Shown in pieces: positions 16,638 to 28,742 of a DNA stretch of 64,000 nt (position 1 is the stretch's first letter; every line of letters starts with the position of its first letter). Below the pieces are notes generated by a model. That model did no database searches. It was given only the letters and a program-made list of their open reading frames with translations, and was not told the DNA's origin. Both the position numbers and the translations under genes were made by a program. This DNA is from Edaphobacter lichenicola (GTDB lineage: Bacteria > Acidobacteriota > Terriglobia > Terriglobales > Acidobacteriaceae): assembly GCF_014201315.1 (NCBI RefSeq), contig NZ_JACHDY010000001.1, positions 1,240,001 through 1,304,000 on the forward strand, read 5' to 3'.

Positions 16638-18101
16638 TCACGCACGTCCAAAGTCGATAAACGCATGTTGCGGATCGGTATGCAGCAGCGTCACATCCAC
16701 CATATCCCCCACATCCAGCCCCTGCTCGCCCCGCACCACCTTGCCCTCCACCGGCGGATCGAACACCCGCACGTACGTCCCCTTATCGTTCGCGCCGGTA
16801 ATCACTCCATGGAAGCTCTTCCCCACGCTCCCGGCCAGTGCCACCGCCGCCACTCGCTTCAGCATCGCCCGTTCCACCTTCCGCCCCGCCGACTCTCTCT
16901 CATTGCAGTGCGTCGCAATCGCCTCAAGCTCCTCATCAGTGTAAGGAGCAGCCTCGCCGGCCAGCATCGCCTTCACCACCCGCTGCGTCACCAGGTCCAC
17001 AAACCGCCGGTTCGGCGCAGTCGAGTGCGCATAGTCCTGCGCCGCCAGCCCGAAGTGCCCCGGCTGCTCCGCATCATCATCGCCCTTAGCCAGCACATAC
17101 TCTCCCGGCCCCATCAGCTTGATGATCGCCAGCGACAGATCCGGATAGTGCACCGCATCCGACTCCCTCTGTGCCTGCAAAAACGCGTTCAGCGCGCCCG
17201 AGTCAGGCTGCGCCGGCAGCACCGTCCCATGCCGCCCCACAAGCTCCACAATCCGCGCCCACCTCTCCGGCGACCGCACCACCCTGCGAATCGACGACCG
17301 CTTCGCCTCCCGCAGCATCCGCGCCATCGTCTCGTTCGTAGCGATCATCAACTCTTCAATCAAATCGCTCGCCCGATTATGAAACGCCGTCCCAATCGAC
17401 TCCACCTTGCCATCCACCACCACCGGATCGGCCTCCACCCGGTTGAACTCCAGCGCGCCCATCTTCACCCTCTGAGCCCGCAGCGCCACTGCCGCCTCAT
17501 CCTGCAGCCGCAGCTGCTCTTGCAACTCAACCGAAGCAGCCACCTTCGCATCCGGCCCCGCCTTCCCTTCAAGCCACGGCCCCACATGGCTGTAAGCCAG
17601 CTGCGCCCTGTTCCGAACCTGCGCCCTGTAGATGGCAGTGTTCTGCACCTTCCCTTCGCCATCCACCACAAACTCAACCACCACCGCCATCCGATCCTCG
17701 TCTTCATTCAACGAGGTCAGATCCGTGGAAAGCTCCGTCGGCAGCATGGAAAAGTTCCGCACCGCCGTATAAACCGTCTGCGTCTGCTCCGCCGCATGAT
17801 GATCCAGCGGCGTATCCTTCAGCACCAAAGCCGAAACATCGGCCACCCCCACCCTTACGCGCACCCCACCGTCCACGCGCTCGGCCACCTCAATCTGGTC
17901 CAGATCCCGCGAGGTGTCATTATCAATCGAAGACCACAACAACCCACGCAGATCGCGAACATCCGCATCCGCCTTCGCTCCCGCAGTCGAACGAATCGCC
18001 GCCACCTGCGCGTCGCTGCCGTCAGGAAAGTCAACAGGAAAGCCCTCGCGAACCATCTCAGCGGAGGCAGAAGCAACCAGATCAAAGGGATGAGCAGACA
18101 T
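16638..18101 (-). CDS. RNB-domain ribonuclease (RNase II/R-like, short form)
   Basis: This 487-residue protein contains the RNB exonuclease core. The active-site signature is seen as SSIDNDTSRDLDQIE (near residue 58), giving the aspartates that bind magnesium, and DYAHSTAPNRRFVDLVTQR gives the family's Y-H-T-P-R-R segment. A short S1-like segment closes the C-terminus (GVITGANDKGTYVRVF). It lacks the N-terminal cold-shock domains of full-length RNase R (about 700-800 residues). The ATG at 18101 (MSAHPFDL) is chosen over an upstream arginine/tryptophan-rich extension. It is the last gene of the rhamnose cluster, 25 bp after rhaB. Confidence 0.88.
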   Translation of the reverse strand: MSAHPFDLVASASAEMVREGFPVDFPDGSDAQVAAIRSTAGAKADADVRDLRGLLWSSIDNDTSRDLDQIEVAERVDGGVRVRVGVADVSALVLKDTPLDHHAAEQTQTVYTAVRNFSMLPTELSTDLTSLNEDEDRMAVVVEFVVDGEGKVQNTAIYRAQVRNRAQLAYSHVGPWLEGKAGPDAKVAASVELQEQLRLQDEAAVALRAQRVKMGALEFNRVEADPVVVDGKVESIGTAFHNRASDLIEELMIATNETMARMLREAKRSSIRRVVRSPERWARIVELVGRHGTVLPAQPDSGALNAFLQAQRESDAVHYPDLSLAIIKLMGPGEYVLAKGDDDAEQPGHFGLAAQDYAHSTAPNRRFVDLVTQRVVKAMLAGEAAPYTDEELEAIATHCNERESAGRKVERAMLKRVAAVALAGSVGKSFHGVITGANDKGTYVRVFDPPVEGKVVRGEQGLDVGDMVDVTLLHTDPQHAFIDFGRA

Positions 18102-18126
18102 GCAAAGGAAGCCTACCACGCGAGTG

Positions 18127-19611
18127 CTAACTCTTCGTAACCGTCTGCTCCAGAGCCAAAACCAACCGCCCCGCCCATCGCGACACCTGCTCCGCATCCG
18201 CGCCCGTCACCTCATCCCGGCTACCCTCCAGCACCGCCAGCTGCACCGCGAAGTTCCCCACCGTCGAGCTCTCCGCCGCGCCACGAAACAACTCCAACCC
18301 CGTAGCCTCCTGCGTCAGCCGATTCAGACAATCATTCTGACTCCCGCCACCCACCACAAACAACCGCTTCAACTTCTTCCCGCTATGAAACGCCACGCGC
18401 TCCAGCACCTCCGCATACCGAGCCGCCAGGCTATGAAAGATCAAACTCGCAAACGCCGGAGCATTCTCCGCACCTTCCTCCAAAGCCTCCAGCCCCATCC
18501 TCACCCGCTGCGCATTAATCCTCTGCGGCATGCCACCAGCCAGCAGCAGATCGGCGTCGTCCACATCCAGCAACCCCTCCGGCGTCGCCACCCTCTCCGC
18601 CGCCGCCACCAACTCCGGCACACTCCACTCCGGGCCCTCCTCAGCCCACTGATGCAGACACTGCCGGATCAACCACATCCCATTCACATTCTTGTGAAAG
18701 CAGACTCTCCCCCCCACCGCTCCAAGATTCGTGAAGTTCTCCGCCGCCACACCCGCATCGTTCCTCGGCTCCTTCAACACAGTCCCCACCAGCGACCACG
18801 TTCCCGAGCTGATATAAGCCCAATCATCCCCCACCGCCGGAATCCCCGCAATCGCCGAAGCCGTGTCATGACAGGCCGGAGCGATCAACACCGTATCGCG
18901 AAACGCCCCCAGCTTCGCCAACTCACCACTCAACCTGCCAACCTCAGTGCCCGGAGGAACCAGCCTCGGCGCCAGCGCAACATTCAGCTCCGCAGCCTGA
19001 AAGATCTCCTCACACCACCGCCGCCCATGCAAATCCACCATCTGCGAGTGAGTCGCGTTCGTGAACTCTGCCACCCGCGCCCCACCCCAACGCGACAGAA
19101 CATACTCCGGCAGATTCATCCACTGCTCGCCTGCAGGCAGTCCCTCCAATCGATCCGCATACAACTGATACAGCGTGTTGATGCGCAGCAACTGCACTCC
19201 CGTACACTCCCGCAGCCGTTCAGGCGCAATCTCCTCGTACAGCATCTGCTCCGCCTCAATCGTCCTCTCATCGCGATAGCAAAACGGATCGGCCAACGCC
19301 CTCCCATCCCCATCCACGCGCACATAGTCCACCGCCCAGCCATCCACCGCAATCGAACGCACGCCCTCCACAGCAATCTCCGCACAGAGTCGAAGCCCAT
19401 GCTCCAGCCCAGCTTCGATCATGCCTAAATCCCAGCGCAGTCCACCCTCCGTCTCACGCGGAGCGTTGGCAAACCGATGCACCAGCGTAATCACCGGCCG
19501 CCCCGCCACCCATCGCAGCAGCGACACCCGGCAACTCTCCGCCCCCAGGTCCACCGCCACCAAAGCCCGCGTATCCTGCGGAACCAGCGCCATATCTGGC
19601 GTCCGTCTCAT
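18127..19611 (-). CDS. rhaB: Rhamnulokinase
   Basis: This 494-residue FGGY-family sugar kinase phosphorylates L-rhamnulose to L-rhamnulose 1-phosphate with ATP. The N-terminal phosphate-binding segment is VAVDLGAESCRVSL; the family signature regions include SIAVDGWAVDYV, INTLYQLYADRL and PACHDTASAIAG, followed by AYISSGTWSLVGT and FVVGGGSQNDCLNRLTQE, as in rhamnulokinases. GGAGAGG lies 6 nt before the ATG at 19611. The gene follows the aldolase fusion by 12 bp and precedes the ribonuclease, in an operon with rhaI, the regulator and the fusion gene. Confidence 0.93.
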   Translation of the reverse strand: MRRTPDMALVPQDTRALVAVDLGAESCRVSLLRWVAGRPVITLVHRFANAPRETEGGLRWDLGMIEAGLEHGLRLCAEIAVEGVRSIAVDGWAVDYVRVDGDGRALADPFCYRDERTIEAEQMLYEEIAPERLRECTGVQLLRINTLYQLYADRLEGLPAGEQWMNLPEYVLSRWGGARVAEFTNATHSQMVDLHGRRWCEEIFQAAELNVALAPRLVPPGTEVGRLSGELAKLGAFRDTVLIAPACHDTASAIAGIPAVGDDWAYISSGTWSLVGTVLKEPRNDAGVAAENFTNLGAVGGRVCFHKNVNGMWLIRQCLHQWAEEGPEWSVPELVAAAERVATPEGLLDVDDADLLLAGGMPQRINAQRVRMGLEALEEGAENAPAFASLIFHSLAARYAEVLERVAFHSGKKLKRLFVVGGGSQNDCLNRLTQEATGLELFRGAAESSTVGNFAVQLAVLEGSRDEVTGADAEQVSRWAGRLVLALEQTVTKS

Positions 19612-19623
19612 CGCGCGCCTCTC

Positions 19624-21870
19624 CTATCGCAGATACGCTTCCGTCAAACCACCATCCACCGGAATCAAGTGTCCCGTCGTGCATCGAGCCAGAGGCCCCG
19701 CAAGGAACATAATCGCCTCCGCACAATCCTTCGGATCAATCGGCTGATGCGTCAACGTCCGCGTCGCATAAAACTGCGCCAGCACATTTCGCAATCCGTC
19801 ATCCGTATCCGTCTCTTCAAACGGCAGTTTGTACTTCTTCAACGAAGCGATCACGCGATCCCGCGGAAACATCGTCGACCCCTTCACCACCGTAGCCGGA
19901 CTGATCCCATTCACCCGCACCTTCGGCGACAGCGAAACCGCCAACTCCCGCACCAGATGACTCAACGCCGCCTTGCTCACGTCGTAAGCCTCACTGCCAC
20001 GCTTCGCCACAACCGCATTCGCCGAACTCGTCAGCACCACGCTCGCATCGATCCCCTGCTCCGCAAAGATCTTCGCCGCCTCATCCGTCAGCAGATAGTT
20101 CGCCGTAACATTAACCTCCAGCGTCAAAGCCCACTGCGCATCGCTGATCACACCATCCGGCGAAGAAGGAAACAGCGCCGCCGTATTGATCAAAATATCG
20201 ATCCCGCCAAACTGCTTCACCGTCGCCTCAAGAGCAGCCTTGATCGTCTTCCGATCACGAATATCAATGCTCGTCCAGCTGACAGCCTCTCTCCCGGCAA
20301 TCGCCTTCACCTCCTCTGCAACCGCCTCCGCGCCCTTCACGTCGCGATCGGCCACCACCACATGCGCCCCGCGTTGAGCGGCAAGCAGCGCAACCTCGCG
20401 GCCAATTCCACTCCCACCGCCAACCACCAAAGCAACCCGCCGACTCAACTCCTTCTCCGGCGGCTGTCTGCGAATCTTCGCCTCTTCCAGCTTCCAGTAC
20501 TCAATCCGAAACGCCTCACTCGGCGGCAGAGCAACATAGTTCGCATGCACCGTAAACTGATCCGCCGAAGCCGCGGGCCCAGCCTGCGGAATCTCCGGTG
20601 TCCCCGGCGAGCTTGCTCGCTGGGGTGAAATATCCTTGCAATCCACGCCCGCACCCAGGGCACCCGCGCCTTGCATCACGCCAATCGCATTGATGTAAAA
20701 CTCGCCTGTAATCCGCGACTCCGTCTTATTCTTTCCAAAGCTGAACATCCCCACACCCGGCACCAACACCACCGTAGGGCTCGCATCCCGCACCGCAGGC
20801 GAATCCTTCACCGCATGCTTCTTGTAGTACTCCGCATACTCCGCGCGATAGGTCTCAAGCGAACTCTCAATCAACTCCTTCAGCTCCGCCGGATCACCCG
20901 CCGGATTCCACTTGAGAAACATCGGCCGAATCTTCGTTCGAATAAAGTGATCCGGGCAGCTCGTCCCCAGGTGCGCCAGCTTCTCCGCCTGCGCCGAGTT
21001 CACAAACTCCATCACCTGCGGCAGATCGCTAAAGCTCCCAATCCACCGCTGCTTCCGCGACACCACCCCACGCAGATAAGGCATCACCTGCAGCGCAATC
21101 GCAGCCCTGTCTTCGCGACTCTTCACCTGCCCGCCGCAAAAGTGCTTATGCCCCGTAACCGAACCATGCCGTTCAATAAACTGCCCCAGCTGATCGATGA
21201 TCGTAATCGTATTCAGGTAGCTCTCGCGCTGCGTCTCTCCCCACGTAAACAGCCCATGCCCACCCAGCACCACGCCATCGCACCCCGGCGTCTCCTCCAC
21301 GATCTTCTTCAGCATCATGCCCAGCTCAAACCCCGGCCTCTGCCACGGCAGCCACGCCAGCTTATGTCCAAACTCTTTGTTGAACTCCTCCATCTTGATC
21401 TTCCCGTTCGCCGAGGCCGCCAGTGCGATCCCCCAATCCGGATGCAGATGGTCCACATGCGCGAATGGCAAAAACCCATGCAGCGGCGTATCAATCGAAG
21501 CCGCAACCGGATTGTTCCCGAACGTACACAGCGGATACATCTCCACCATCTCGTCTTCGAGATCCACCCCGCGATACGCCTTCTCCAGCGTCAGCAGCTT
21601 ATCCATGTAGAGCGTCGCAAACCCTGCGCGCTTGATGCTCCCCAGATCGCCCCCACTCCCCTTCACCCACAGAATCTGCTTCGTCTTACCATCCAGCGGA
21701 TCGACCTGCTCCAACTTCGAGCTCGTATTTCCCCCACCGAAGTTGGTGATCCGCAGATCCGAGCCCAGCAGGTTCGATCTGTATCGCAGCAGCTCTGGTG
21801 CATCCAGCTTCGCCGATACCGCCTCATCCCAACGATCTTCCAAAAACTTCAGGCCGCCCTGTGCCGTCAT
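19624..21870 (-). CDS. Bifunctional rhamnulose-1-phosphate aldolase / short-chain dehydrogenase
   Basis: This 748-residue fusion has an N-terminal class II aldolase domain (about residues 1-370; zinc-site HVDHLHPDWG and GGHGLFTWGE) and a C-terminal short-chain dehydrogenase (about 470-748; ALVVGGGSGIGREV for NAD binding, catalytic YDVSKAAL). It matches the known RhaEW-type architecture: cleavage of L-rhamnulose 1-phosphate to DHAP and L-lactaldehyde, then oxidation of lactaldehyde to L-lactate. The linker region near 380-440 is proline- and alanine-rich. It lies between the regulator and rhaB on the same strand. The lactate produced is the substrate of LutABC, encoded upstream. Confidence 0.93.
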   Translation of the reverse strand: MTAQGGLKFLEDRWDEAVSAKLDAPELLRYRSNLLGSDLRITNFGGGNTSSKLEQVDPLDGKTKQILWVKGSGGDLGSIKRAGFATLYMDKLLTLEKAYRGVDLEDEMVEMYPLCTFGNNPVAASIDTPLHGFLPFAHVDHLHPDWGIALAASANGKIKMEEFNKEFGHKLAWLPWQRPGFELGMMLKKIVEETPGCDGVVLGGHGLFTWGETQRESYLNTITIIDQLGQFIERHGSVTGHKHFCGGQVKSREDRAAIALQVMPYLRGVVSRKQRWIGSFSDLPQVMEFVNSAQAEKLAHLGTSCPDHFIRTKIRPMFLKWNPAGDPAELKELIESSLETYRAEYAEYYKKHAVKDSPAVRDASPTVVLVPGVGMFSFGKNKTESRITGEFYINAIGVMQGAGALGAGVDCKDISPQRASSPGTPEIPQAGPAASADQFTVHANYVALPPSEAFRIEYWKLEEAKIRRQPPEKELSRRVALVVGGGSGIGREVALLAAQRGAHVVVADRDVKGAEAVAEEVKAIAGREAVSWTSIDIRDRKTIKAALEATVKQFGGIDILINTAALFPSSPDGVISDAQWALTLEVNVTANYLLTDEAAKIFAEQGIDASVVLTSSANAVVAKRGSEAYDVSKAALSHLVRELAVSLSPKVRVNGISPATVVKGSTMFPRDRVIASLKKYKLPFEETDTDDGLRNVLAQFYATRTLTHQPIDPKDCAEAIMFLAGPLARCTTGHLIPVDGGLTEAYLR

Positions 21871-21971
21871 GTGTCAACCTCTTCGTCCTGGCCTAAATCC
21901 AGGCCCCGACTATCATTCCACACGCAACACCAATACGGCAACTATTTCCAATGAGAAAATTAGGCCAAAAC

Positions 21972-23066
21972 TCAAACCTCGCCGAGCGAATCCCGGGTCA
22001 CCATCTTATGAGCCACATAGTTGTAGGGAGGCACCGTCTGCCCCCGCAGCAGCAACAGTCCAAGATGAATCAAACTCGGCCCATACGAGCTCGCCTCATG
22101 CGACACCGACCCGATCAACGGCGACTTGTCCCTCCGCATCTCCTGCATCGCCTCCGCAATGCAATCCTGCCCCACAATCGCCACATGCTTCTCGCGCTTC
22201 TGCTCCCGCACCGCATCCACCGCACCCAGCGCGCTCGAGTCCGTAGCCGCCGCAATCAGAATGCGCCTGTCCTTCGGATGTCGCTGCAGAAAATCCGAGA
22301 TCAGCTTCTTGCTCCGGTCGCGCATCCCCCGCCCATCGATCCGCACAAACACCTCCACCGGCAGCTCCGGATGTCCGCTCCTCACCCCTTCAAACGCACC
22401 CGTAATCCGGCTCTGCACCAACTGCCCCGCCTCGGCCAGATCCAGCCCGATCACCCAATCCACCTTACCGTCCCAGTTCGCTGTCGCGTAGGCGCCCAGC
22501 GTCTCCCCAGCTTCGATCCCTACCCGATAGTTATCCACCCCGAAGTAAGTCGCATGAGGATGCGGAATATCGATCGCGATCAGCGGAATCTTCGCCCCCG
22601 CAATCTTGTCCCCGATCATCGGAGCAACCTCCTGCTCCACCTGAAACTCGATCACCAGATCCACCTTGCTCGAAACAAACTCCTCCGCATTCCGCAACGC
22701 AGTCGCTGCGTCATAGCGGTTATCCAGAATCAGCAGATCGACCCCCACCGCCGCTGCCGCATCCTTCAAACTCTCCGTCACCTCTACGGAAAACGGCATA
22801 TCCGCGCTCTGCCCGCCAAAGCCAAACCGCATCTTCTTCGGCCGCGTCACCTGCCGGTACGTCCCATCGGGAGACTGCGAAAGATATCCCCGGTGAACGA
22901 ACGTCTTCAACACCCGGTACACCGTCGTCTTCGAGATTCGCGTCTGCCGATGGATCGACTCCAGCGTCATCGGCTGGTTCTCCGCCTGCAGCAGCTCCAG
23001 AATATCCAGCGCCTTCGACAGCACCGGAATCAGATAAAGTCGTTTCGAGGTCTTTCGTACCGCCAT
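21972..23066 (-). CDS. IclR-type HTH / periplasmic-binding-protein-like fusion regulator (putative rhamnose regulator)
   Basis: This 364-residue regulator has an IclR-like winged helix at residues about 10-65 (LSKALDILELLQAENQP, then TRISKTTVYRVLKTF) joined to a type I periplasmic sugar-binding domain (about 90-320: MRFGFGGQSADMPFSVEV, LIAIDIPHPHATYFGVDNY, ILIAAATDSSALGAVDAV, VAIVGQDCIAE). The normal IclR effector domain is absent, and LacI-type regulators carry a different helix-turn-helix. The ATG at 23066 (MAVRK) is preferred to a GTG at 23090. It sits between rhaI and the aldolase fusion and probably senses L-rhamnose and binds the shared 20-nt sites. This role is inferred. Confidence 0.85.
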   Translation of the reverse strand: MAVRKTSKRLYLIPVLSKALDILELLQAENQPMTLESIHRQTRISKTTVYRVLKTFVHRGYLSQSPDGTYRQVTRPKKMRFGFGGQSADMPFSVEVTESLKDAAAAVGVDLLILDNRYDAATALRNAEEFVSSKVDLVIEFQVEQEVAPMIGDKIAGAKIPLIAIDIPHPHATYFGVDNYRVGIEAGETLGAYATANWDGKVDWVIGLDLAEAGQLVQSRITGAFEGVRSGHPELPVEVFVRIDGRGMRDRSKKLISDFLQRHPKDRRILIAAATDSSALGAVDAVREQKREKHVAIVGQDCIAEAMQEMRRDKSPLIGSVSHEASSYGPSLIHLGLLLLRGQTVPPYNYVAHKMVTRDSLGEV

Positions 23067-23225
23067 AGTCTCCCGCCGAGGAGCGACCACTCAGCCGATC
23101 CATTATGCGGCACCTGCCCCGGTTTCGCTAATGGAATTCCCACGAAGCAGCGATCAAAGCATCAGAATCTCTCTTCCCAAAACCCAACCACCGCCTCACC
23201 CCGCGACGATCAGGAGAAAACATCT

Positions 23226-24431
23226 CTAAGCATAGGTCGAAACACTGCGAGCATTCTTGCTCTCTCGCTCCCGCGTAATCTTCTCCACATATCCGCTCTC
23301 CGCCAGCGCCTTCAGAGGCTCCGCCGGAAGCCCGCGCGCCGTCCTCCACTCCCTCACAATCGGCCGCACGTCCTGCCAGAAGCTATCCCGGAAGCACTCC
23401 TCAGCCTCCACCAGCCGGCACTCCTGCTGCATCTCCGCCAGCTTCACCTGGTCAATCAGCGCGGCCTTCGCATACAGCTCCTGCGCCGTCGCCACCGTCT
23501 GCACCATCGCCTCCACCTTGCCCTTCAGGTTGTGGCTCTGGTCGATCATGAAGGCAATATCCGTGCGATCCTTCTCCTCCGCACTCAAAATCTCATGGAA
23601 GATCCGAAACACCTGGTAAGGATCGATCGAGCCCAGCGTCAGGTCGTCATCCGCGTACTTCCGGTCGTTGAAATGAAATCCACCCAGCTCCTTCACATGC
23701 AGCAGCCACGTCACGATCTGTTCAATATTCGTCGCCTGCGCATGATGCCCCGTATCCACCAGCACCTTCGCCTTCGGCCCGCACCGTCGCACCAACTCCA
23801 GAGCCATCCCCCAGTCCGCAATGTCGGTGTGATAAAAAGCCGGCTCGAACGGCTTGTACTCGACCAGCATCCGCTGCCCGTCGCCCAGCGCAGCATGCGT
23901 CGCACCAAGCACCTCTTCCATCCATCCAATCCGCTTGCGAATACTCTGCGTCCCCGGATAGTTCGACCCATCCGCGATCCACAGCGAAACATCCTTCGAC
24001 CCCAGCTCCCGCCCAATCGCCACCGACTCCAGCAGATGCTTCAACGCCATCCCGCGAATCTCCGCGCTGGGATTCGCAATCGATCCATACTTGTACTCCG
24101 CGCTCTGAAACAGATTCGGATTGATCGACCCAGCCTTCATCCCATACTTCTTCTCGAGCGTCTGAATCGCAGGAACATCCGCCGTCCCATTCGGCAGGTC
24201 CCACAGCACATGCAGCGCCACCGTCGGGCTCGCCCCCGTCAACGCATTCACCTGCGCCGCATCGCTGAACTTCTCTTCAATCGTCGTCGCCGCCCCACCC
24301 TGAAGAAACTTCCCGAACCGCGTCCCGGTATTCGCAAATCCCCACGATGGAAGCTCAATCCGAAAACCATCGAGCGCGCTGTACACCCTCTGTGCCTTCT
24401 GCTCTGCGACCCCTGCACCGTTGTTTCCCAT
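23226..24431 (-). CDS. rhaI: L-rhamnose isomerase, RhaI type
   Basis: This 401-residue TIM-barrel isomerase resembles the Pseudomonas stutzeri/Bacillus RhaI group rather than E. coli RhaA. Metal and substrate residues are visible in MLVEYKPFEPAFYHTD, VLVDTGHHAQATN and GFHFNDRKYADDD. It converts L-rhamnose to L-rhamnulose. ATG 24431 (preceded by an in-frame GTG) has AAGGGGAA about 8 nt upstream. It is the first gene of the rha operon; the 20-nt candidate operator lies 38-57 nt upstream of the start. Confidence 0.92.
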   Translation of the reverse strand: MGNNGAGVAEQKAQRVYSALDGFRIELPSWGFANTGTRFGKFLQGGAATTIEEKFSDAAQVNALTGASPTVALHVLWDLPNGTADVPAIQTLEKKYGMKAGSINPNLFQSAEYKYGSIANPSAEIRGMALKHLLESVAIGRELGSKDVSLWIADGSNYPGTQSIRKRIGWMEEVLGATHAALGDGQRMLVEYKPFEPAFYHTDIADWGMALELVRRCGPKAKVLVDTGHHAQATNIEQIVTWLLHVKELGGFHFNDRKYADDDLTLGSIDPYQVFRIFHEILSAEEKDRTDIAFMIDQSHNLKGKVEAMVQTVATAQELYAKAALIDQVKLAEMQQECRLVEAEECFRDSFWQDVRPIVREWRTARGLPAEPLKALAESGYVEKITRERESKNARSVSTYA

Positions 24432-24468
24432 CACTCGATTCCCCTTAGATCCAAGATATTACGATATA

Positions 24469-24488
24469 GAAATATACTCTCTATTGAA
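24469..24488 (-). promoter_or_regulatory. Candidate operator, copy 1 (upstream of rhaI)
   Basis: GAAATATACTCTCTATTGAA on the + strand is an exact match, in reverse complement, to 27466-27485. Read toward rhaI it is TTCAATAGAGAGTATATTTC and ends 37 nt before the ATG. It is an imperfect palindrome (AATA to TATT). Its AT-richness stands out from the GC-rich surroundings. Confidence 0.7.
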
Positions 24489-24543
24489 ACATAGGCAGAC
24501 TGCTCCTTTTTACTGTCGTTTGTCAAAAGATTTTTTCCACGCT

Positions 24544-25227
24544 TCAAACAATCAGAATCACATCCAGAGATCGCGGCCCATGCACTCCCTTGATCCGTGT
24601 CATCTCGATATCCGCCGTCGCAGACGGTCCCGAAACAAACGTAGTCGCGAGGCCAGCCGTCTCTTGCAGACGCCCCATCGCCTCCGGCACCGTCTCCACC
24701 ACATCCTCCGCCCTCACCACGCACAGGTGATAGTCCGGCACCAGCGTCGCCGCCCGCCTTCCCTGCCCCGCAACATTCTGCAGCACGAACGTCCCCGTCT
24801 CCGCAATCGCCAGCGTCGCCCCCGTCATCACCCCATCGACATCATCCAACTCCTCCGAGGACAACCCCTCATCCACCACAAACTCCACCTCACCAGCCGA
24901 AGCCGGCAGCCACCCAACCGGCATCCATTCAACCGGCAACCCCACCGGCACCACCATCCGCCGAACGCCACGCTCCACCAGCCTCTTCGCCACACTCTGT
25001 CCTACGCCCTCACCCGCAGCCCGAACCACCCGCGCGTCATAGTCCCGCAACCGATCCTCCAGCAGCGCCAGCAGCCCCTCGCGCTCCCGCGTCCCCTTCC
25101 GCCGATACTCCCGCGCAATCCCATCCCACCCAGCCCGCACCGCAACTCCATCTGACGTACCACCCCTAGCCGCCCTCACCCTGCGCAACACCTCAGCCCG
25201 CGAATTTGTAACCATATCAGTTGCCAT
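24544..25227 (-). CDS. lutC: Lactate utilization protein LutC (LUD domain)
   Basis: This 227-residue LUD/YkgG-family protein is the third subunit of the LutABC L-lactate oxidation complex. Typical segments are GLSSEELDDVDGVMTGATLA, IAETGTFVLQNVAGQGRR and LVPDYHLCVVRAEDVVETV, ending with SATADIEMTRIKGVHGPRSLD. The ATG at 25227 overlaps the end of lutB by 11 bp; a longer arginine-rich upstream extension is not family-like. The complex takes electrons from L-lactate to give pyruvate in the cytoplasm. Confidence 0.92.
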   Translation of the reverse strand: MATDMVTNSRAEVLRRVRAARGGTSDGVAVRAGWDGIAREYRRKGTREREGLLALLEDRLRDYDARVVRAAGEGVGQSVAKRLVERGVRRMVVPVGLPVEWMPVGWLPASAGEVEFVVDEGLSSEELDDVDGVMTGATLAIAETGTFVLQNVAGQGRRAATLVPDYHLCVVRAEDVVETVPEAMGRLQETAGLATTFVSGPSATADIEMTRIKGVHGPRSLDVILIV

Positions 25228-26695
25228 CTCTACCCCGCCTCTCCCACCAGTCCCGAAACGTCTCCTTCGGCATCTCCTCGAGATCCCTCGCCTGAGTCCA
25301 TCCGCCCAGCAGCCCCGGCAGCCATCCAATCCATCCCTCGCCCTGTCCATCCCTGCGCACCAGCGGCCTCTCCGCCACGCGCCCCAGCCGCTGCGCCGCT
25401 CTGAACCTCCGCTCGCTCCGAAAGATCATCGCCATCGCCTTCATCGCCCCGGCCTCCACATCAAACAACCCCGCGACCCCAGCCGTATTCTGCTTCACCA
25501 CCTTATTGCGCAGATGTATCAGCACCTCCGGAATATTGATCTTCACCGGACAGACCTCATAGCAAGCCCCGCACAGCGAAGACGCGTACGGCAGCGACTG
25601 CGCATGATGCATCTCCTGCAGCTGCGGTGTCAGAATCGCCCCGATCGGCCCCGCATACACGCTCCCATACGCATGTCCCCCCGTCTGCCGATACACCGGG
25701 CACGCATTCTGGCAGGCCCCGCAGCGAATACAGTTCAGCGTCTGACGTCCCTCCTCATCCGCCAGGATCTCCGTCCGCGCATTGTCCGTCAGCACCACAT
25801 GAAACACCCGCGGACCATCTCGCAAACCATCCCCAGAAGAAGCAGCATCCACCCCAGTCCAGATCGAGTTATACGGATTCATCCGCTCCCCGGTAGCCGA
25901 CCGCGGCAGCAACTGCAGCATCACCTCCAGGTCCTGAAACCGCGGCAGCACCTTATCGATCCCCGCAATCGTGATCAGCGTCTCGGGCAGCGTCAGGCAC
26001 ATCCGCCCATTGCCCTCACTCTCCACCACGCAAACTCCACCCGTCTCCGCAATCAAAAAGTTCGCCCCACTCACCGCCGTCTTCACCCGCAGAAACTTCT
26101 CCCGCAAAAACATCCGCGCAGCATCCGCCAGATCCTGCGGCCTCTCTCCCAACTCCGGCAGCTTCATCTCCCGCTGAAAGATCTCGCGAATCTGCTGCCT
26201 GTTCTTATGCAGCGCCGGCACCACAATATGCGACGGCCGATCCTCCCCCAACTGAATAATCAACTCCGCAAGATCGGTCTCATAGGGATGAATCCCCGCC
26301 GCCTCCAGCGCAGAGTTCAGTTGAATCTCCTCCGTCGTCATCGACTTGATCTTGATCACCTGGTCCGACCCCGAAGCCTTCACCAGCCCGACAACAATCC
26401 CTCGCGCCTCCTCCGCATCCCGAGCCCAGTGCACCACTCCACCCGCGCGCGTACAGTTCGCCTCAAACTCCTCAAGATAGAAATCCAGATACTCCATCGT
26501 GTGCCGGCGAATCTGCCTCCCTGCCTCGCGCAGCTCCTGCCAGTCCGGCATCTCACCCACCACGCGAGCCCGCTTCTCCTGGATCACGTCCGTCGCATGA
26601 CGCACATTCTTCCGCAGCTGCGTATCACCCAGCATCGCCTTCGCCGCCATAGGAAACGTCGGCGCCGTCTTCGGATCCAACCCCACTCCACTCAT
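25217..26695 (-). CDS. lutB: Lactate utilization iron-sulfur protein LutB
   Basis: This 492-residue protein has an N-terminal LUD domain (FLIAETGGVCVVESEGNGRM near residue 210) and two ferredoxin-like [4Fe-4S] motifs: CIRCGACQNACP near 310 and CGACYEVCP near 365. It matches LutB/YkgF length and layout. The ATG overlaps the lutA stop by 4 bp (ATGA), and lutC overlaps its 3' end, so lutABC is translated as a coupled operon. The probable donor of lactate is the rhamnose aldolase-dehydrogenase fusion. Confidence 0.93.
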   Translation of the reverse strand: MSGVGLDPKTAPTFPMAAKAMLGDTQLRKNVRHATDVIQEKRARVVGEMPDWQELREAGRQIRRHTMEYLDFYLEEFEANCTRAGGVVHWARDAEEARGIVVGLVKASGSDQVIKIKSMTTEEIQLNSALEAAGIHPYETDLAELIIQLGEDRPSHIVVPALHKNRQQIREIFQREMKLPELGERPQDLADAARMFLREKFLRVKTAVSGANFLIAETGGVCVVESEGNGRMCLTLPETLITIAGIDKVLPRFQDLEVMLQLLPRSATGERMNPYNSIWTGVDAASSGDGLRDGPRVFHVVLTDNARTEILADEEGRQTLNCIRCGACQNACPVYRQTGGHAYGSVYAGPIGAILTPQLQEMHHAQSLPYASSLCGACYEVCPVKINIPEVLIHLRNKVVKQNTAGVAGLFDVEAGAMKAMAMIFRSERRFRAAQRLGRVAERPLVRRDGQGEGWIGWLPGLLGGWTQARDLEEMPKETFRDWWERRGRDGN

Positions 26696-27432
26696 CGCCC
26701 TACCCCGTCTTCCCCCGCCAGAATCTCCGCCAGATGCACCGTCTTCACGCCCGTCCTCTGCCGATGCAGCGCCCCCTGAAGATGCATCAGGCAGGAGTTA
26801 TCGCAAGCCGTACAAGCCTCCGCCTTCGTATTCAAAACCGCCGTCGTCTTCTCCGCCAGCATCGCGCTCGAAACATCCGCATTCTTCACCGCAAACGTCC
26901 CGCCAAATCCGCAGCACTGCTCCAGCCCCTGCAGTTCGACGAGATCAATTCCCCGCACCGCCTTCAACAGCCGCATCGGCCCATCGCCCAGCAACAGATT
27001 CCTCAACCCATGGCAACTCGCGTGATACGTCACCCGATGCGGATAGTAAGCCCCCACATCCTCCAGCCCCAACCGCTTCGTCAGAAACTCCGAAAACTCA
27101 AACACCCTCGGCAGCAGAGCATCCACCTCCGCAATCAACTCCGCCCGTCCGCTCGCCACAGCCATCTTCGGATAGTGATCCCGCATCATCGCCACACACG
27201 ACGACGACGGCACCACCACAGCCTCCGCCCCGCGAAACTGCGCAACAAACCGCTCCAGCAGCGGCATCGCCTCCGCCTGGTAGCCGGTGTTATAGTGCAT
27301 CTGCCCGCAGCAAGTCTGCCCTCGAGGAAACTCCACCATATGCCCAAGCCGCTCCAGCACCCGCACCACAGCCTTGCCGGTCTCAGGAAACAGCGTGTCG
27401 TTATAACAAGTAATAAAGAGTGAAACTCGCAG
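26692..27432 (-). CDS. lutA: Lactate utilization protein LutA, apparently starting at CTG
   Basis: This 246-residue CCG-domain protein carries two cysteine-rich motifs (FPRGQTCCGQMHYNTGY with a later SSSC; GLEQCCGFGGTFAVK with CTACDNSCL) that ligate the cluster seen in this glycolate-oxidase/heterodisulfide-reductase-like family. Family members begin M-(R/K)-V-S-L-F-x-T-C; here the matching codons start at CTG 27432 (L-R-V-S-L-F-I-T-C). An in-frame TAG lies at 27487-27489, and no ATG, GTG or TTG occurs between it and GTG 27369. GTG 27369 would delete the conserved N-terminal 21 residues. GGAGG lies 5 nt before the CTG. A frameshift or sequencing error is the alternative. Confidence 0.88.
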   Translation of the reverse strand: MRVSLFITCYNDTLFPETGKAVVRVLERLGHMVEFPRGQTCCGQMHYNTGYQAEAMPLLERFVAQFRGAEAVVVPSSSCVAMMRDHYPKMAVASGRAELIAEVDALLPRVFEFSEFLTKRLGLEDVGAYYPHRVTYHASCHGLRNLLLGDGPMRLLKAVRGIDLVELQGLEQCCGFGGTFAVKNADVSSAMLAEKTTAVLNTKAEACTACDNSCLMHLQGALHRQRTGVKTVHLAEILAGEDGVGR

Positions 27433-27437
27433 ACCAA

Positions 27438-27442
27438 CCTCC
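27438..27442 (-). promoter_or_regulatory. Shine-Dalgarno GGAGG that fixes the lutA CTG start
   Basis: On the minus strand GGAGG is followed by five bases and then the CTG at 27432. It is the only strong ribosome-binding site near the conserved LutA N-terminus. Confidence 0.6.
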
Positions 27443-27465
27443 AGCGAAGCGCAATCTCGATATAA

Positions 27466-27485
27466 TTCAATAGAGAGTATATTTC
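27466..27485 (+). promoter_or_regulatory. Candidate operator, copy 2 (between lutA and rhaT)
   Basis: TTCAATAGAGAGTATATTTC on the + strand is the exact reverse complement of 24469-24488. It lies 75 nt upstream of the rhaT start and 33 nt upstream of the lutA start in the divergent gap, so one bound regulator could govern both. Relative to rhaT it has the same orientation as the rhaI site has to rhaI. Confidence 0.7.
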
Positions 27486-27560
27486 CCTAACGCAACTCGC
27501 GTCAGGTACGATAGTACCCGCTCAACCCAGCATCTCCATCATTCAACAGAACGAGGCTTC

Positions 27561-28742
27561 GTGGGACCCAATCCTTTCATCGGCGTCATCTATCACTGGA
27601 TCGGCGGCTTCGCCTCCGCCACCAACTTCATCCCCTTCCGCGGCATTAAGCGCTGGTCGTGGGAGATCTACTGGCTCATCCAGGGCTTCGCCGCGTGGAT
27701 CATCGCCCCCGTAGTCCTCGCCGCGCTCCTCGTCCCGAATCTCTTCGGCATCCTCCACGCCGCCCCGGCCTCCAGCATCCACTACGCCATCTTCTGGGGC
27801 ATCCTCTGGGGAGCAGGCGGCCTCACCTTCGGCCTCGCCATCCGCTACCTCGGCATCGCCCTCGGATACGCCATCGCCCTCGGCCTCTGCACCGCCTTCG
27901 GAACCCTCATCCCGCCCATCTACGACGGCTCCATCCACGTCATCCTCCACGAGACCTCCGGCCAGATCATCCTCGCCGGCGTGCTCCTCTGTCTCATCGC
28001 CGTAGCCGTCAACGGAGCCGCTGGCCTCTCGAAAGAACGCGAAGTCACCCCCGAAGAAAAAGCCGAAGCCGGAGAGACCGACTACAACTTCGGCAAAGGA
28101 CTCGCCGTCGCCATCTTCGCCGGCATCATGAGCTCCTTCTTCGCCTTCGGCCTCAAAGCCGGAGCCCCCATCGGAGCCCTCGCCAAGACCGAACTCCTCG
28201 CCCACAACCGCCTCGACCTCTGGCAGAACCTGCCCGTCCTCATCGTCGTGCTCTGGGGAGGCTTCCTCACCAACTTCATCTGGTCCGCCATCCTCATCCT
28301 CAAAAACGGCTCCATCAAACAGTTCACCGGCCAGCCCGGCCTCAACCCCATGCGCGCGACTCACGCCTCAGGCCAAACCCTGGTCGACTTCGACCCCCTT
28401 GACCCCTCCACCTACGACCACCTCGCCCCAAAAACCCTCGTCCAGAACTACATCTTCGCCTCGCTAGCCGGCCTCATCTGGTACTTCCAGTTCTTCTTCT
28501 ACTCCATGGGCCAGACCAAGATGGGCAAGTACGACTTCTCCAGCTGGACCCTCCACATGGCCAGCATCATCATCTTCGCCACCCTCTGGGGACTCTTCCT
28601 CAAAGAGTGGCGAGGCACCAGCCGCCGCACCAAAACCCTCGTAGCCACCGGCCTCTTCCTTCTCGTCAGCTCCACCATCGTCGTAGGCTACGGCAACTAC
28701 CTCAAAGCCAACGAAACCCCCACCACCATCACCACCCGCTAG
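27561..28742 (+). CDS. rhaT: L-rhamnose/proton symporter RhaT
   Basis: This 393-residue inner-membrane permease has about ten hydrophobic helices and the RhaT pattern (NPFIGVIYHWIGGFASATNF at the start, LIQGFAAWIIAPVV, WGAGGLTFGLAIRYLGIALG). It is longer than E. coli RhaT (about 344 residues), partly through the 160-180 loop and the 250-290 region. GTG 27561 follows ACGAGG. It is transcribed away from lutABC and probably shares the divergent operator. Confidence 0.9.
   Translation: MGPNPFIGVIYHWIGGFASATNFIPFRGIKRWSWEIYWLIQGFAAWIIAPVVLAALLVPNLFGILHAAPASSIHYAIFWGILWGAGGLTFGLAIRYLGIALGYAIALGLCTAFGTLIPPIYDGSIHVILHETSGQIILAGVLLCLIAVAVNGAAGLSKEREVTPEEKAEAGETDYNFGKGLAVAIFAGIMSSFFAFGLKAGAPIGALAKTELLAHNRLDLWQNLPVLIVVLWGGFLTNFIWSAILILKNGSIKQFTGQPGLNPMRATHASGQTLVDFDPLDPSTYDHLAPKTLVQNYIFASLAGLIWYFQFFFYSMGQTKMGKYDFSSWTLHMASIIIFATLWGLFLKEWRGTSRRTKTLVATGLFLLVSSTIVVGYGNYLKANETPTTITTR

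Follow-up and report, generated by a model that had tools for sequence, protein, structure and literature searches.

A predicted L-rhamnose regulon that includes lactate oxidation genes in Edaphobacter lichenicola and its probable regulator of unusual domain make-up

L-Rhamnose is a sugar of pectin and of plant glycosides, and the Acidobacteriota are abundant soil decomposers whose gene regulation has been little studied. Rhamnose regulators of the AraC, DeoR and LacI types have been described in six phyla (PMC3870299); in the main text of that study the terms IclR and Acidobacteri occur 0 times. The same text reports that RhaEW of Chloroflexus aurantiacus converts L-rhamnulose-1-phosphate into L-lactate and dihydroxyacetone phosphate (DHAP), and that lldD/lldEFG belong to RhaR regulons of certain Actinomycetales and Rhodobacterales. 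A Granulicella strain is described as growing on rhamnose (PMC7074687). Here we analyzed a stretch of 64,000 nucleotides (nt) of the Edaphobacter lichenicola genome (the window; contig NZ_JACHDY010000001.1, positions 1,240,001 to 1,304,000), which contains a cluster in the order rhaB, rhaEW, regulator, rhaI, lutC, lutB and lutA, all on the minus strand, followed by rhaT on the plus strand. The cluster is very likely a local L-rhamnose regulon including lutABC, whose operator would be bound by a protein with an IclR-type helix-turn-helix (HTH) and a Peripla_BP_4 domain, most likely a repressor.

The original prediction placed two exact copies of an AT-rich 20-nt sequence on opposite strands in short intergenic gaps of this cluster. 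Searches of the window and of the genome confirmed them at 24469-24488 (+) and 27466-27485 (-), in gaps of 36% and 48% GC versus 59% for the window. When up to three mismatches were allowed, these were the only two matches in the window and across the whole genome of 4,880,565 bases; each of 100 dinucleotide shuffles and a reversed-pattern control gave 0. The flanks of the copies are dissimilar (identical bases 16/40 upstream and 12/40 downstream), therefore the pair does not stem from recent duplication of a larger segment. The 20-mer is the core of a longer, imperfectly symmetric site of about 31 base pairs (bp), very likely an operator, of which it takes in the strong half, with CAATAG, and the inner portion of the opposite half. 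A common orientation had also been predicted, and both copies do read TTCAATAGAGAGTATATTTC toward rhaI and toward rhaT, but this is less meaningful than it seemed because the site is partly palindromic and in relatives its strong half occurs in both orientations with respect to the genes. The longer site around both copies, its imperfect dyad symmetry and a third, more divergent copy (Table 1) go beyond that first reading.

With E values up to 10 allowed, a sequence-only model (R1) of 61 sites from relatives gave three matches in the own genome (150 of the 247 candidates from the first look were scored), all in the cluster, at window coordinates 24460-24489, 27466-27493 and 21930-21958; the motif is not scattered. 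The 61 training sites had at least 18 bits and lay near a rha, lut or regulator gene. Neither R1 nor the matrix that produced the bit scores in Table 1 holds a window site; the 61 sites were picked with a matrix that had the window among its training regions. The next matrix score in the window after the three operators was 7.2 bits.

The motif was obtained from up to 20 kb fetched around 40 regulator orthologues from 38 genomes. De novo discovery in 158 upstream regions, window included, produced tTtCAATAGaGAAattaTTTC with a log-likelihood of 529, versus 138-145 in three shuffled sets (40 random starts for the real set and 15 for each shuffled set). When extended to about 31 bp, the dyad symmetry of the site set peaked at centre 16, the best of all centres tried, with 0.43 of pairs complementary versus 0.285 with permuted columns; 6/5000 permutations reached this value. 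A palindrome-seeded expectation-maximization run was dropped as symmetry evidence because it is symmetric by construction, and the column-permutation test was used instead.

Site positions were counted at a threshold of at least 15 bits in the 40 loci of relatives and the window, using a matrix whose training included the window. Sites were found upstream of rhaI (23/30), rhaT (18/20), lutA (10/11) and rhaEW (23/25), and none was found upstream of rhaB (0/27), lutB (0/11) or lutC (0/11). The seven rhaI genes that lack a site (L049, L051, L052, L064, L070, L071 and L072) are all located downstream, on the same strand, of a site-bearing rha or lut gene. The site therefore goes with the heads of operons. 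The motif is kept in relatives not only before the genes originally named but also before rhaEW, and the suggestion that the divergent copy could control lutABC gains support from the lutA count in these regulator-centred loci and from two further lutABC clusters (L111 and L112). Neither of the two computational checks named in the original prediction, for many unrelated copies and for lack of conservation in relatives, refuted it. Aligned with near relatives in 17 rows, the operator stood out as the main conserved non-coding block upstream of rhaI; before lutA it was conserved in 9 rows, with some flank, and before rhaEW in 16 rows, where another block closer to the gene was conserved too. 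Within a sample of the genus, 31/41 genomes had a model match at E <= 0.1, in many cases three of them within roughly 6 to 9 kb, and 10/41 had none. There are five loci (L033, L118, L119, L127 and L129) where the regulator gene and rhaI are 3-5 kb apart and the rhaI operator is kept.

The sites before rhaEW differ from the others. Position 12 of the 31-bp site is C in 21/29 genomes at rhaEW, versus 0/22 at rhaI and 0/26 at rhaT/lutA (0/48 together). These figures are base counts at that position; an earlier count was dropped because its criteria were unequal (GCA or CAA versus GCA). With all columns considered, a difference between rhaEW and the other sites as large as the real one arose in 0/2000 permutations of the labels (kinship not corrected), and the rhaI and rhaT/lutA sites differ less (22/2000). 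The rhaEW subtype is conserved across genera, and in two genomes (G133 and G104) it is kept even though rhaEW is preceded there by rhaI instead of the regulator gene. The aldolase/dehydrogenase step on the one hand and the uptake, isomerase and lactate steps on the other may be controlled by one regulator at different thresholds; graded affinity would be our guess.

The candidate regulator matches PF09339 (HTH_IclR) with 54.9 bits versus a cut-off of 22, and its C-terminal part matches PF13407 (86.6 bits) and PF00532 (30.2 bits), both above cut-off, as a sugar-sensing domain of the periplasmic-binding-protein (PBP) type. A Pfam scan at E <= 0.001 showed no IclR effector-binding domain, the C-terminal stretch matching Peripla_BP_4, and no LacI helix-turn-helix, HTH_IclR taking its place. 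The N-terminal part also matches the N-terminal part of the PcaR/PcaU, BhcR and KdgR models. A fold model has a mean predicted local distance difference test score of 70.6 from 15 sequences, which suffices to assign the fold class and no more. In it the N-terminal part is helical and carries two strands, like a winged helix, and the C-terminal part has a ribose-binding-protein fold; ribose-binding protein was also the best match in a fold search of the PDB. The LacI family likewise carries a PBP-type sugar sensor. By eye, the probable start of the protein is an ATG at 23066. Its sequence is 99% identical to the counterpart in Edaphobacter lichenicola M8US30. Orthologues, counted by hand at a minimum of 55% identity with fragments included, were found in 47/150 genomes of the family, and at E <= 1e-100 the protein was found in 22/297 genomes sampled across the phylum, all 22 in the family of the window. 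Acidobacteriaceae genomes often carry paralogues of it. A second copy that is 62% identical exists in a genome of the same genus (L068, G098:C2:965173-966264); the 20 kb fetched for this locus contained no match to rha or lut genes.

The presence of the site was then compared with that of the regulator gene. A site of at least 18 bits within 400 nt upstream of rhaI, rhaT, lutA or rhaEW occurs in 40/43 regulator-positive genomes versus 2/17 regulator-negative genomes with rhaI (G000 left out, gene matches starting after query residue 60 dropped; Fisher p 1.8e-9, a value inflated by related genomes). As background, 51/2025 random windows of the same loci, real sites included, reached 18 bits, and Markov surrogates had no site of 14 bits or more. 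The rhaI gene itself is present in 44/47 regulator-positive versus 17/103 regulator-negative family genomes, and a genome-wide model match at E <= 0.1 in 26/47 versus 5/103. Linkage and co-occurrence thus point to the fusion protein named in the original prediction as the probable binder. When rhaI, rhaEW, rhaT or lutABC is at least 10 kb from the regulator gene or on another contig, the site is kept in L096, L100-L106, L111 and L112, although many of the distant loci, including the last two, were fetched because they had an R1 match. Six of the seven loci fetched for rhaI (L102-L108) have a site of at least 18 bits at a rha gene; L107 has none at its rha gene distant from the regulator, and its fetch also spanned a model match. 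The sites kept at distant rha and lut genes indicate that the factor acts in trans.

Six rha clusters of another kind are located beside a paralogue 35-38% identical to the regulator (L078, L080, L083, L088, L092 and L093). Five of them lack the window motif, and L078 has a weak one at lutA (16.0 bits). The presumed recognition helix differs too, and both observations favour the proposed assignment: the protein of the window has SKTTVYR, whereas five paralogues have PKTMxFR and the sixth has NKGLCFR. Of these clusters only L093 (G135) shares its genome with an orthologue, and the stretch scanned in L080 gave matches to Peripla_BP_4/Peripla_BP_1 alone and none to HTH_IclR at E <= 1e-5. When 27 upstream regions and 22 shorter ones, from nine rha loci including the six beside paralogues, were searched for motifs, no clear site for a paralogue operator emerged; the best patterns of the 27-region run were set aside because they seemed derived from conserved coding sequence.

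We propose that the regulator, whose gene lies between rhaI and rhaEW, occupies three operators and probably does so as a dimer. One operator is ahead of rhaI, one ahead of rhaEW-rhaB, and the one in the divergent lutA-rhaT gap would serve both lutABC and rhaT. It would most likely be a repressor that is released by L-rhamnose or an early catabolite. The inclusion of lutABC would make sense because RhaEW-type enzymes yield L-lactate together with DHAP, and co-induced lutABC would oxidize the lactate to pyruvate. The operator centres lie 40 nt (rhaI), 48 nt (lutA), 73 nt (rhaEW) and 81 nt (rhaT) before the start codons. Consensus promoter scans of the three regions gave one weak match, so we infer the repressor-like operator positions. 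The closeness of the rhaI and lutA operators to the start codons and the -10 element of that match, inside operator 2, favour blocking of RNA polymerase. An activator that binds the same operators with L-rhamnose and recruits RNA polymerase is unlikely. Many LacI-type sensors act in repressors, which speaks against it, as do the short rhaI and lutA distances and the blocking position of the sole promoter-like match. On its side, the rhaT and rhaEW distances would fit a site over the -35 region, and RhaS and RhaR of Escherichia coli are activators (PMC3870299).

Several observations weigh against the assignment of this regulon to this protein. A site precedes the regulator gene itself in just 11/41 loci, the window not being among them. 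The single sites of the window are weakly symmetric, with 9, 7 and 5 of 15 pairs (shuffle fractions 0.025, 0.097 and 0.253). In the co-occurrence comparison most regulator-positive loci had supplied training sites, two regulator-negative genomes fell just below the 18-bit cut-off (G101 with 17.6 and G013 with 16.0 bits), and at 15 bits the regulator-negative count becomes 4/17. Three genomes have the regulator and no site of at least 18 bits at a rha or lut gene (G019, G089 and G135), and the second rhaI loci of G031 and G135 lack a site. The five genomes with a model match and no detected regulator are G012, G022, G037, G084 and G085; in G084 a contig end falls at the place where the regulator might be. 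Also, G008, which is 100% complete and has no regulator, keeps a lutA site of 21.6 bits. These last genomes would fit a real motif bound by a different, unlinked regulator, the IclR/PBP protein being merely a neighbour. We consider this improbable given the co-occurrence, the closeness of rha genes to the regulator in the majority of the 40 loci fetched and the sites upstream of the regulator genes that do have one.

Shared promoter elements or an RNA leader of the operons would be AT-rich and close to start codons, as the sites are, and TATACT is present on one strand. This reading is nevertheless very improbable because the strong half is found in both orientations, the sites as a set show dyad symmetry, the site tracks the regulator gene and three own-genome model matches (among the 150 of 247 candidates scored) are too few for a housekeeping promoter. 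Twenty identical bases within 3 kb could also come from functionless duplication, gene conversion or chance, an explanation to which the dissimilar flanks, the 0/100 shuffles and the conservation across genera leave almost no room. The predicted repressor and its operators remain our preferred reading.

In relatives the regulon seems to extend further. The open reading frames (ORFs) beside 18 hand-picked sites, all but one unassigned to a rha or lut gene, were inspected and most were scanned, with no base rate for such neighbours. Four sites adjoin genes of GH106 alpha-L-rhamnosidases (L107, L061, L058 and L101, the last also with GH88), which a rhamnose regulator should control. Two adjoin GH88 and GH35 genes (L113 and L100), five adjoin OMP_b-brl_4 outer-membrane barrel genes that are TonB-receptor-like in build (L110, L050, L053, L043 and L051), and two adjoin GDSL hydrolases (L109, with a bestrophin-like gene, and L048, with a short-chain dehydrogenase). 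The site of L099 adjoins a GH39-like gene and is also 230 nt before rhaI, that of L114 adjoins a phosphoesterase gene, L115:14998 is inside an ORF, and L115:8336 (G012, no regulator) is a strong 30.3-bit site before a fucose/arabinose-isomerase-like gene. The sites of L050, L053, L058 and L061 are right beside the regulator or rha cluster; others are kilobases away or on other contigs. Further sites of 15-18 bits (L033:130, L053:4450, L061:9322, L066:7310 and L099:699) were outside the neighbour survey, as L053:987 was outside the scan. Sites at distant rha and lut genes and at GH106, GH88/GH35 and outer-membrane barrel genes are as expected of a trans-acting rhamnose regulator.

The genes and sites of the window are listed in Table 1. 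Against curated cut-offs, RhaEW and LutB passed; RhaI, RhaB and RhaT had the expected best family but scored below. The probable start of lutA is a CTG at 27430-27432 (-) after GGAGG, and the homologous codon in the other 10 of 11 rows is, by eye, ATG, GTG, TTG or CTG. Next to the cluster, an RNase II-type exoribonuclease gene (RNB domain) at 16638-18197 (-) has an ORF that overlaps the end of rhaB (18127-18197).

Table 1. Coordinates of predicted operators, promoter-like site and genes in the window.
Feature	Position	Strand	Basis
Operator 1, before rhaI; holds the first 20-mer copy	24459..24489	-	Best own-genome model match; 36.7 bits
Operator 2, divergent lutA-rhaT gap; holds the second 20-mer copy	27465..27495	+	Second model match; 32.7 bits
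Operator 3, before rhaEW; subtype with C at position 12	21928..21958	+	Third and last model match; 29.8 bits
Promoter-like site toward lutA, CTGACG-18-TATACT, -10 inside operator 2	27476..27505	-	Consensus scan, 1 found versus 0.2 expected; weak
rhaB, rhamnulokinase	18127..19611	-	TIGR02627 best family, below cut-off
rhaEW (rhaD), bifunctional rhamnulose-1-phosphate aldolase/short-chain dehydrogenase	19624..21870	-	NF006189 and TIGR02632 above cut-off
Candidate regulator, HTH_IclR (amino acids 24-73) and Peripla_BP_4 (amino acids 93-351)	21972..23090	-	Pfam, fold model, PDB fold search
rhaI, L-rhamnose isomerase	23226..24434	-	TIGR02635, 488 bits, slightly under cut-off of 531
lutC (LUD domain)	24544..25227	-	PF02589
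lutB, L-lactate oxidation iron-sulfur protein	25217..26695	-	TIGR00273 above cut-off
lutA (CCG domains)	26692..27432	-	PF02754 in two stretches; reading frame
rhaT, L-rhamnose/proton symporter	27561..28742	+	PF06379; NF010024, 463 bits versus cut-off of 468

Taken as a whole, the analysis predicts an operator, a regulator with an unusual combination of domains and a regulon that would couple rhamnose use to the oxidation of L-lactate, reaching alpha-L-rhamnosidases and outer-membrane barrel proteins in relatives. The operator is real and conserved, and its assignment to the regulator is well supported. A local sugar regulon is of a known kind; the regulator type and the motif appear to be new within the literature searched, which was the open literature, where no paper on the regulator, the domain pair or a rhamnose regulon of Acidobacteriota was found, subscription papers and RegPrecise being outside the search. 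With moderate confidence, this could be the first assigned regulon of a distinct regulator group, with an IclR-type DNA reader, a ribose-binding/LacI-type sensor and two operator subtypes. It gives a handle on the paralogues of the regulator in Acidobacteriaceae, and would extend the AraC, DeoR and LacI types covered in PMC3870299 by one more non-orthologous kind of regulator.

As in RhaR-type regulons, a conserved motif precedes rhamnose catabolic operons in the genomes that bear the regulator. For the LacI-family RhaR of Actinomycetales a local rhamnose regulon was likewise predicted from palindromic motifs (PMC3870299), but the regulator described here has an IclR-type DNA-binding domain and comes from another phylum, the motifs of the two not having been compared letter by letter. 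The DeoR-family RhaR of C. aurantiacus likewise controls the rha operon in an organism with RhaEW; it belongs to another protein family and its motifs are described as imperfect direct repeats, in contrast to the imperfect inverted repeat found here (PMC3870299). RhaS and RhaR of E. coli also exert rhamnose-responsive control over rha genes including rhaT, but are activators of the AraC family (PMC3870299). Members of the IclR family such as KdgR and PcaR/PcaU/PobR have the N-terminal winged helix in common with the regulator, which differs in that Peripla_BP_4 occupies its C-terminal part and no IclR effector domain was matched. Its combination of HTH_IclR and Peripla_BP_4 places the regulator outside the AraC, DeoR and LacI groups of known RhaR proteins.

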